Shown here piece after piece: positions 6,387 to 62,388 of a stretch of 64,000 bases of DNA. Each line of letters begins with the position of its first letter. Position 1 is the stretch's first letter. The stretch lies in contig JACAEQ010000114.1 in assembly GCA_013388755.1 (NCBI GenBank), positions 1 to 64,000 of the forward strand, read 5' to 3'. Below the pieces are notes generated by a model. It was not told the origin of the DNA and searched no databases. It saw only the letters and a list, made by a program, of their open reading frames with translations. The translations under genes were made by a program, and so were the position numbers. The DNA comes from Chloroflexota bacterium. Its GTDB lineage: Bacteria; Chloroflexota; Chloroflexia; Chloroflexales; Roseiflexaceae.

Positions 6387-6429
6387 CTCCATGCTTCCAG
6401 ATTGATTCTGCCATCCTGGAAGCATGGAG
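6387..6429. repeat. Perfect 14-bp inverted repeat (hairpin)
   Basis: CTCCATGCTTCCAG (6387-6400) and CTGGAAGCATGGAG (6416-6429) with a 15-nt loop. It directly abuts the left end of the palindromic element. It lies between divergent genes, so it does not terminate either of them. Confidence 0.8.
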
Positions 6430-6430
6430 T

Positions 6431-6588
6431 GCCTATCCGAATAACGGACCGGATGTCATTGCGAACGCGAGCGAAGCAATCTCCGCTCGCGCTGGTCGAT
6501 TGCTTCAGCCACGCTGCGCCCGCTGCACGCTGTCGCTGGCGCTCCTCGCCATGACCGCAGGCCCATGGGTTGTCGGATAGGCTCTTAG
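6431..6588. repeat. Palindromic intergenic element, copy A (GCCTATCCGA ends)
   Basis: Bounded by GCCTATCCGA (6431-6440) and its exact reverse complement TCGGATAGGC (6573-6582). The interior carries the family words GTCATTGCG, GAAGCAATCTCCGCTCG and GCCATGACCGCAGGCCCATG. Other copies are at 15319-15520, 16270-16421 and 62233-62386. It encodes nothing credible. Confidence 0.85.
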
Positions 6589-6591
6589 ACA

Positions 6592-6797
6592 CAATACCTT
6601 TCAAATAAGCTCTTCGCCTCCACCCCGGCCCGCCCCCGCCGGGGGAGGGAGTCCGACTCCTCCCCCCAGCGGGGGAGGTTGGGTGGCGTGTTTCGCTTCA
6701 CTTGCAGCTTTCGCCGCAGTGTCCGACTCCTCCCCCCAGCGGGGGGAGGTTGGGTGGGGGGCTGTGCGGTGCATAACGCCTTATTTGCAAGGTATTG
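6592..6797. mobile_element. MITE-like element, copy A, with 10-bp flanking duplication
   Basis: The ends are CAATACCTTTCAAATAAG (6592) and CTTATTTGCAAGGTATTG (to 6797), an 18-bp terminal inverted repeat with one mismatch. It is flanked by an identical 10-bp direct repeat CTCTTAGACA (6582-6591 and 6798-6807). The 206-bp interior is GC-rich, with two copies of a CTCCCCCAGCGGGGG-type hairpin followed by AGGTTGGGTGG. No transposase is encoded, so it would need one in trans. Confidence 0.75.
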
Positions 6798-6862
6798 CTC
6801 TTAGACAGATGCTCTGGTGAAGGGCGTACTGGAACATTGTGCTTCTGAGAGGAGGGCCTACC

Positions 6863-15318: not shown

Positions 15319-15520
15319 TAAGAGCCTATCCGAAAACCCATGGGCACGCTGTCATTGCGCGGCGCGTGAGCGACCGCCTGCAGCGCGCGACGCGTGGCTG
15401 ACGCAATCGACCGGCGCGAGCGGAGATTGCTTCGCTTCGCTCGCAATGATCCGGAAGATGGGAGATTGCGTCGCTGCGCTCGCAATGACAGTGATCATCT
15501 GGTGTTCGGACAGGCTCTAA
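15319..15520. repeat. Palindromic intergenic element, copy B
   Basis: The left end is TAAGAGCCTATCCGAA and the right end TTCGGACAGGCTCTAA, about 15 bp of inverted match with one mismatch. It is the longest copy (about 200 bp). It carries two GCAATGA-ended GAGATTGC(T/G)TCGCT(T/G)CGCTCGC sub-palindromes where the other copies have one. Confidence 0.85.
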
Positions 15521-15523
15521 GTC

Positions 15524-15659
15524 CAATACCTTTCACATACGCCCGTCACCCTCACCCCGGCCCTCCCCCGCCGGGGGAGGGAGTCCGACTCCTCCCCCTG
15601 GCGGGGAGAGGTTGGGTAGAGGGCTGTGCGGTGCAGAACGCCTTATTTGAAAGGTATTG
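15524..15659. mobile_element. MITE-like element, copy B, with 10-bp flanking duplication
   Basis: The ends CAATACCTTTCACATACG and CTTATTTGAAAGGTATTG match copy A. The flanking 10-bp direct repeats GCTCTAAGTC (15514-15523 and 15660-15669) are identical to each other but differ from those of copy A, as expected of target duplication. The 136-bp interior has a single CCCCGCCGGGG-type hairpin, while copy A has an extra internal unit. Confidence 0.75.
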
Positions 15660-15704
15660 GCTCTAAGTCGTGTTAATAATGAATACTCATGAGGGGCAGG
15701 AGTG

Positions 15705-16133: not shown

Positions 16134-16269
16134 GACAGGATTCAGATAACATGGCACCCTGTTCCACCGATACGCCGACAACATATCGGATGGAACCATG
16201 CCTCCAGAGATGGTACGTGGTGCATCGTCTGGCCGGATGCCTGGTATTGATGCGTGTGCAGGGCAACTT

Positions 16270-16421
16270 GCCTATCCGAACGGCTGGTTGGATGGCATTG
16301 TGCGCGAAGCGACGCAATCCCCCATCGCAGATAGGAGATTGCGTCAGCCATGCGTCGCTCGCTGCAGGCGGTCGCTCGCGCTCCGCGCAATGACAGGAGG
16401 CGGAGAGGTTTTCGGATAGAC
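16270..16421. repeat. Palindromic intergenic element, copy C
   Basis: Begins GCCTATCCGAA (16270) and ends TTTTCGGATAGAC (to 16421). The interior has GGCATTGTGCGCGAAGCGACGC and CGCTCCGCGCAATGACAGG as in the other copies. No MITE is inserted at this copy. Confidence 0.8.
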
Positions 16422-16460
16422 ATCAGGTATACGAGTCCCACACGGCTGCGCCGTTTACTA

Positions 16461-31632: not shown

Positions 31633-32772
31633 TTAACTTTGCTCCTCGCCATTTTCGCGCTTCATCGCAGCCTTTTTCGCGGCATTGGCGGCACGAATGG
31701 CGGCCAGGCGAGCGGCCTTGTCGTCCGGGGCAATCGGGGTGGTAGCGGCAGCCGGCGGCGCGGCAGGTTCGGCGGCCTTGTCGTCCGGAGCAACCGGGGC
31801 GGTAGCGGCAGCCGGTGGCGCGGCAGGTTCGGCGGCCGTCTTTTTCGCGGCATTGGCGGCGCGAATGGCGGCGAGGCGAGCGGCCTTGTCGTCCGGAGCA
31901 ACCGGGGCGGTAGCGGCAGCCGGCGGCGCGGCAGGTTCGGCGGCCGTCTTTTTCGCAGCATTGGCGGCGCGAATGGCGGCGAGGCGAGCGGCCTTCTCCT
32001 CCGCGCTAAGCGGCCCCGGCTGAGGTTCTGCCGGAGCGGCGGGCGGCGGCGTGGCCGGCTTCGTTCGCGCGGCCGGTGGCGTCGCAGCAGGTATGTCAGC
32101 GGCCCGAGATGTAGCACGCTGCGCCTTGATCTTCTCGACCATCTGCGGTGCAACACCGATCAAATCCGGGCGGCGCTTGATGTTCCCTTGCAGTTTCTTC
32201 AGCGCGCCATCTTTCACTTCAGCCCAGAACGTCGGTGCGAGGCGTTCATAATACGATACAGGGCGATTCAGCCCTTCTTTGTTGATCGTCAACCCGCCGT
32301 GAACATCGGTGGAGAGTTCAAACTCCTGGTCCATCTTAATCGCATCGAAGGGGCAGACCTCGGCGCAGAGGCCACAGCTCATACAGGCATCGTACTCGAT
32401 CATGAATTCGGCCACTGCCGGAACGGCTTTACCGGTAGCCGGATCCCTGGCCTGGGTCATATGAATAACCTGCGGCGGGCAGATTCGCTGGCACTGGAAG
32501 CACGACGTACAGAGTTCCTGGCCCGTTTCATCGTCATAGAGCAGGATCGGGAAATTACGGAACGCTTCCGGGAAGGTCAGCTTTTCTTCCGGGTACTGCA
32601 CGGTAAAGATGCCGCTGCTCTGGCTTGGTTTTTCGAGCTTGCGGGTAAGTGCATCGCGGAAATGGCGAATAACGATGTCAAGCCCGGCGAGCATTCCCTG
32701 CCCGGCGCGCAGTCGTGGCCGGCTGCGGTCGATCACATATACCTTGCCGCGTTCGATGTCAGTCGTCGTCAA
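31633..32772 (-). CDS. nuoI: NADH-quinone oxidoreductase subunit I with a long repetitive Ala/Pro/Lys C-terminal tail
   Basis: 379 residues from a TTG at 32772 (AGAGGACG upstream). The N-terminal about 200 residues are a normal NuoI. Two 4Fe-4S sites are present, CTSCFQCQRICPP and CMSCGLCAEVCPFDA, then the conserved LNRPVSYYERLAP. From about residue 235 to the end runs a low-complexity tail: AARLAAIRAANAAKK occurs three times, separated by AEPAAPPAAAT-type linkers ending APDDKA. Usual NuoI proteins are 140-220 residues. The tail would hang in the cytoplasm near the quinone module; its function is unknown. Confidence 0.92.
   Translation of the reverse strand: MTTTDIERGKVYVIDRSRPRLRAGQGMLAGLDIVIRHFRDALTRKLEKPSQSSGIFTVQYPEEKLTFPEAFRNFPILLYDDETGQELCTSCFQCQRICPPQVIHMTQARDPATGKAVPAVAEFMIEYDACMSCGLCAEVCPFDAIKMDQEFELSTDVHGGLTINKEGLNRPVSYYERLAPTFWAEVKDGALKKLQGNIKRRPDLIGVAPQMVEKIKAQRATSRAADIPAATPPAARTKPATPPPAAPAEPQPGPLSAEEKAARLAAIRAANAAKKTAAEPAAPPAAATAPVAPDDKAARLAAIRAANAAKKTAAEPAAPPAAATAPVAPDDKAAEPAAPPAAATTPIAPDDKAARLAAIRAANAAKKAAMKRENGEEQS
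31668..32002 (-). repeat. 108-bp coding tandem repeat in nuoI
   Basis: Units of 36 codons (a 15-residue basic helix plus a 21-residue Ala/Pro linker). One internal unit (31771-31830) has only the linker half, so the helix occurs three times and the linker three times. DNA identity between units is high. Confidence 0.85.
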
Positions 32773-62188: not shown

Positions 62189-62232
62189 TCTTCGGTCACC
62201 AGGCGCAGCCGCCGCTGCAAGAGTTGGTTAGT

Positions 62233-62386
62233 GCCTATCCGAAAACCCATGGGCCTGTGGTCATTGCGCGGAGCGTCAGCGACCGCGTGCAGCGAGCGCA
62301 GCGTGGCTGAAGCCATCGACCGGCACGAGCGGAGAGTGCTTCGCGCGCGCTCGCCATGACAGTGACCATCTGGTGTTCGGATAGAC
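62233..62386. repeat. Palindromic intergenic element, copy D
   Basis: Begins GCCTATCCGAAAACCCATGG and ends GTTCGGATAGAC, with TCTTAG following. The interior has GTCATTGCGCGGAGCG and CTCGCCATGACAGTGACC as in copies A and B. The right end runs into the stop codon of the next leftward gene. Confidence 0.85.
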
Positions 62387-62388
62387 TC

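Follow-up and report, generated by a model that had tools for sequence, protein, structure and literature searches.

A MITE in a Chloroflexota genome adjoins one end of a palindromic element so closely that the two overlap in sequence, raising the question of whether the MITE seeks out the palindrome as such or only a motif that the palindrome carries. The locus lies at 15319-15669 of the window, the 64,000-nucleotide stretch analyzed here, which belongs to contig C75 of a 5.08-Mb genome (62% GC) in 145 contigs (Table 1). The direct repeat GCTCTAAGTC around the MITE is identical at 10/10 positions between its two copies, and its first four bases are the last four of palindrome B; the left copy begins inside the palindrome, just as the initial annotation had it when it stated that the MITE duplication covers the palindrome end. 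The same annotation had the MITE following the palindrome without a gap, which is correct up to the shared target duplication, but three flank bases (GTC) separate the TAA of element B from the MITE. Element B is longer than element D by about 38 bp, apparently owing to an internal duplication around GGAGATTGCKTCGCTKCGCTCGCAATGA. A second palindrome-plus-MITE pair with the same arrangement occupies 6429-6807; its MITE is flanked by CTCTTAGACA at 6582-6591 and 6798-6807, and the internal repeat of this longer variant lies around GTCCGACTCCTCCCCCCAGCGGGGGAGGTTGGGTGG. Elements C and D, which had been taken for empty sites, both lack a MITE, but only D, with its intact flanks, is a true empty site, C having lost its flanking TWA and being a poor one.

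Table 1. Palindromic elements, MITEs and their target duplications in the window
Feature	Position	Description
Palindromic element A	6429..6584	Same IS5-type family as B
First nested MITE	6592..6797	206-bp variant with internal duplication; 10-bp TSD CTCTTAGACA
Left TWA duplication copy of element B	15319..15321	TAA; 3-bp target duplication
Palindromic element B	15322..15517	GAGCC...GGCTC, 196 bp; ends GAGCCTATCCGAA / TTCGGACAGGCTC; non-autonomous IS5-family derivative
Left MITE target duplication	15514..15523	GCTCTAAGTC, 10 bp; its GCTC belongs to palindrome B
Right TWA duplication copy of element B	15518..15520	TAA; inside the MITE target
MITE	15524..15659	136 bp; ends CAATACCTTTCACATA / TATTTGAAAGGTATTG; non-autonomous IS4-family derivative
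Right MITE target duplication	15660..15669	GCTCTAAGTC, bearing palindrome-derived GCTC
Palindromic element C	16268..16423	Without MITE; flanking TWA lost
Palindromic element D	62231..62388	Without MITE; TTA/TTA flanks intact

To judge from its termini, the palindromic element is a non-autonomous derivative of the IS5 family. Its ends, GWGCCTATCCGAA, are bordered by a 3-bp TWA target duplication whose two copies agree in about 10 intact pairs from the sample, and read outward they give the consensus YTWAGW|GCC. A relative from the same order (G018) has eight elements with palindrome ends, each about 905 bp long and nearly identical to one another; they lie in a CTTAG context, and two overlapping frames in them match NF033580 (IS5 family transposase). 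The ends also occur on transposase-bearing IS5-family elements of G027 and G012. In these relatives, in the TWA duplication and in the ends themselves (GAGCCTATCCGAA), the element resembles the IS5 family, within which we take its placement to be IS427/IS1031-like, but the window elements lack genes, span about 155-196 bp and have only about 17 bp per end in common with the transposase-bearing elements. The L193 protein, used as a query, found no match in the window's genome (G000); G003, G012, G018 and G027 match. Elsewhere in the window's genome, palindromic elements stand end to end with a single common TWA or similar triplet (contig C104, 2148-2176; C74, 27867-27895; likewise C50, 1084-1112, and C92, 3063-3091), so palindrome ends also serve as targets for other palindromic elements. 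In G003, a relative assembled as a single contig, palindrome ends repeat at about 260-bp spacing (C1, 2165705-2166568 and 2890686-2891746), which suggests tandem arrays of the element.

The MITE, in turn, is a non-autonomous derivative of the IS4 family, probably of subgroup IS4. MITE-type ends are present in many Chloroflexota MAGs; related MITEs there also have a 10-bp duplication centered on YT|AR, and palindrome-like sequence lies beside only one of them (L138). One Chloroflexia MAG holds a 1545-bp element (L143) that has the MITE ends and codes for a 483-aa protein matching NF033592 (IS4 family transposase; 171 bits) as well as the Pfam domains Nterm_IS4 (75.5 bits) and DDE_Tnp_1, with residues D139, D215 and E321 fitting the IS4 spacing D(60-110)D(100-150)E. 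A genome of the same family as that of the window, G005, has two contig-edge pieces of IS4-transposase elements with exact MITE ends. The end signature of the IS4 subgroup, -AATR--------WTW (Table 1 of De Palmenaer et al. 2008, PMC2266710), is fitted by the MITE ends CAATACCTTTCAAATA and CAATACCTTTCACATA, both of which keep A-T-A at positions 14-16, and the 10-bp direct repeats and the length of L143 fall within the ranges given for duplications (10-13 bp) and autonomous elements (1400-1650 bp) of that subgroup (PMC2266710). Alike in these respects and in the domains of the autonomous relative, the system departs from the subgroup (PMC2266710) in that the window MITE is 136 bp long without a transposase and that the Y(2)R(3)E(6)K motif of L143 and G005 has Y, R and E but D in place of K. 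With the L143 protein as query, no match was found in the window's genome, though G005 and G028 match; a MITE need not have its transposase in the genome it occupies, but the lack bears on whether it can still move. Four DDE_Tnp_1 loci of the window's genome were considered as partners of the MITE and rejected, since none bears MITE ends. The flanks of an IS4-type element in G028 (L280, about 1290-2930) are inverted copies of each other for 14 bp or more, which looks like insertion at a palindrome center.

The order of insertion can be read from the far duplication copy. Of the 59 letters that the near copy takes from the palindrome, summed over 16 junctions, 54 recur in the copy beyond the MITE (P = 2e-25); the MITE therefore came second. 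It is the younger element in the window, as at nearly every other nested site, and the proposal that one non-autonomous element is nested in another holds, the MITE having gone into the palindrome's edge. In the opposite order, the palindromic element would have inserted into the duplication beside an older MITE, which also has YTWAR; the motif is indeed common to both elements, and palindromic elements do insert beside each other with one TWA in common, but a later palindrome would not make the GCTC, CTC or GCAC found in the far duplication copy, and this order, which the window copies and 14-15 of the 16 junctions contradict, is extremely unlikely. We regard it as very unlikely, too, that palindrome and MITE form a composite copied jointly by duplication or recombination, such that nested copies would not be independent: although some copies have mismatched flanks through rearrangement or misassembly (L020 and L004 have their left flank in common and differ in the right, a pattern pointing to MITE-to-MITE recombination or misassembly), nested copies vary in palindrome side, end type (GA/GT), TWA version, TSD and outer flank, and for most of them the distinct outer flanks contradict a composite unit.

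A search of the window's genome scored 40 strong MITE copies, and the MITE terminal 11-mer, with one mismatch allowed, occurs there about 110 times per direction. Reading of a sample of 1.264 Mb, made up of the window and 60 other stretches, and of targeted fetches, in which up to two mismatches per end were accepted and more divergent copies missed, yielded about 83 distinct MITEs, comprising 57 two-ended copies (the window copy at 6592 included) and 26 usable single ends. The duplication is perfect (10/10) in 25 of the 57, and its consensus is GNTCT|AGANC, with YT|AR at the center. This resembles the target consensus of IS10, NGCTNAGCN, and that of IS50/Tn5, GNTYWRANC, both palindromic, 9 bp long and built around CTNAG or YWR; the MITE target is unlike them in spanning 10 bp rather than 9, and the two insertion sequences have other ends and belong to other subgroups. 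Seventeen of the 83 copies abut a palindrome end, as do 15 of the 57 two-ended ones, including one doubtful case (L028) whose flanks are unlike each other. Because contigs of this assembly often stop inside a MITE or a palindrome (C2, C23, C53, C87, C96, C100 and others), these counts are lower bounds; at least four single MITE ends, from contigs that break off there, finish in TTAGAGC and probably hide more nesting, since the missing side would be palindrome.

Site-preferred nesting, as first proposed, is real, for palindrome-end positions make up 0.07% of the sample and the excess over uniform position is about 290-fold; yet unrelated sequence surrounds 74% of the two-ended copies and 80% of all copies, the outcome that the initial annotation had named as refuting its proposal. 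A uniform-position model is moreover too naive, taking no account of the target motif. Weighting by a target matrix lowers the excess to 21-fold, and added restriction to intergenic sequence, whose boundaries come from a crude codon-based caller that called both flanks coding for 5 of 19 sampled MITEs, lowers it to 4-fold (P = 5e-7). This matrix assumes independence between positions and derives from copies that lie mostly at CTAG, whereas palindrome ends offer CTWAG; with the intergenic restriction, the additive model predicts 5.7 of 83 copies at palindrome ends for present sequences and 9.5 of 83 if all palindrome ends were undecayed, versus the 17 seen, leaving a residual 1.8-3-fold excess.

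Such a residue could mean that the palindrome itself, folded as a hairpin or cruciform or bound by a host protein, is recognized by an IS4-type transposase and draws it to the edge beyond the pull of the motif. Sites scoring 4-7 bits, with odds ratios for nesting of about 6-9, would fit this reading, and extragenic palindromes are known to serve as targets for some insertion sequences (PMC1525189). At the highest-scoring sites, however, the odds ratio is about 1.1 and there is no excess; the YT|AR target in other genomes almost always occurs without a palindrome, and most MITE copies in this genome lie away from palindromes. Matching nested copies for target class and intergenic position gives 11.9 expected and 15 seen (P = 0.22, not significant, and a value to be read in the knowledge that this test was picked once a residue had emerged from the additive model). 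In the 1.264-Mb sample, about a quarter of the genome, from which empty sites were counted, 30 intergenic CTWAG sites are unoccupied and 20 of them are palindrome ends; scaled to the genome, MITE occupancy of CTWAG is 13.9% at palindrome ends versus 4.7% at other intergenic sites, a nominal and not significant difference (Fisher P = 0.15), and that of intergenic CTAG is 6.5%. The preference for the palindrome end, strong against random position, becomes indistinguishable from a preference for the motif (CTAG / CTWAG / YTAR) when intergenic sites of one class are compared. That the transposase recognizes the palindrome as such, in addition to the motif, is not supported, and we consider it unlikely; that the transposase senses a cruciform or host protein and prefers the palindrome's edge over identical motifs, in a weak commensal relation, is decidedly unlikely.

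Differential retention offers another account of the residue. Insertion would be motif-driven everywhere, and palindrome edges, being intergenic and without promoters or constrained sequence, would keep more copies. The fall from 21-fold to 4-fold upon intergenic restriction is in keeping with such a safe haven, which is compatible with and additive to a common target motif and would account for a small residue, but its effect is inseparable from target choice in these data, and we find it possible but unlikely.

We posit, with good though not complete confidence, that the nesting reflects two independent non-autonomous families with a common target motif, plus intergenic retention. The older IS5-family palindromic element enters C-TWA-G and duplicates TWA, and its outermost G restores (C)TWAG at both termini. 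The MITE, of the IS4 family and the later arrival, would then have been moved in trans by a transposase, which we infer to have been of the IS4 group and now absent from the genome, making 10-bp staggered cuts centered on YT|AR (GNTCT|AGANC). Such motifs are scarce in this genome of 62% GC and lie mostly within genes, from which purifying selection presumably removes MITE insertions; palindrome ends thus constitute a large share of the tolerable targets and gather about one-quarter of MITE insertions. The nesting excess would thus arise because IS5-type and IS4-type elements prefer one CTWAG-like target, and a small palindrome-specific effect beyond this common target may exist in addition.

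A search of the literature on MITEs in Roseiflexus or Chloroflexi found nothing on this element pair. As in the palindrome-targeting insertion sequences of PMC1525189, a mobile element recurs at short intergenic palindromes; unlike what is described there, insertion here occurs at the outer edge, via the palindrome's own target-duplication motif, and not at a palindrome-specific target. Both elements are of known kinds, and their nesting is a cleanly legible case of ordinary transposon biology. It places two waves of transposase-less elements within a single genome in order of relative age and illustrates how one element can make target sites for another through a common motif, without dedicated recognition. 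Both families extend beyond this genome in Chloroflexota, so the two together might be used as a natural experiment on target choice. The window also contains tandem repeats at 1-240 and 31667-32100, with 24-bp and 60/48-bp spacing, that are unrelated to the nesting.
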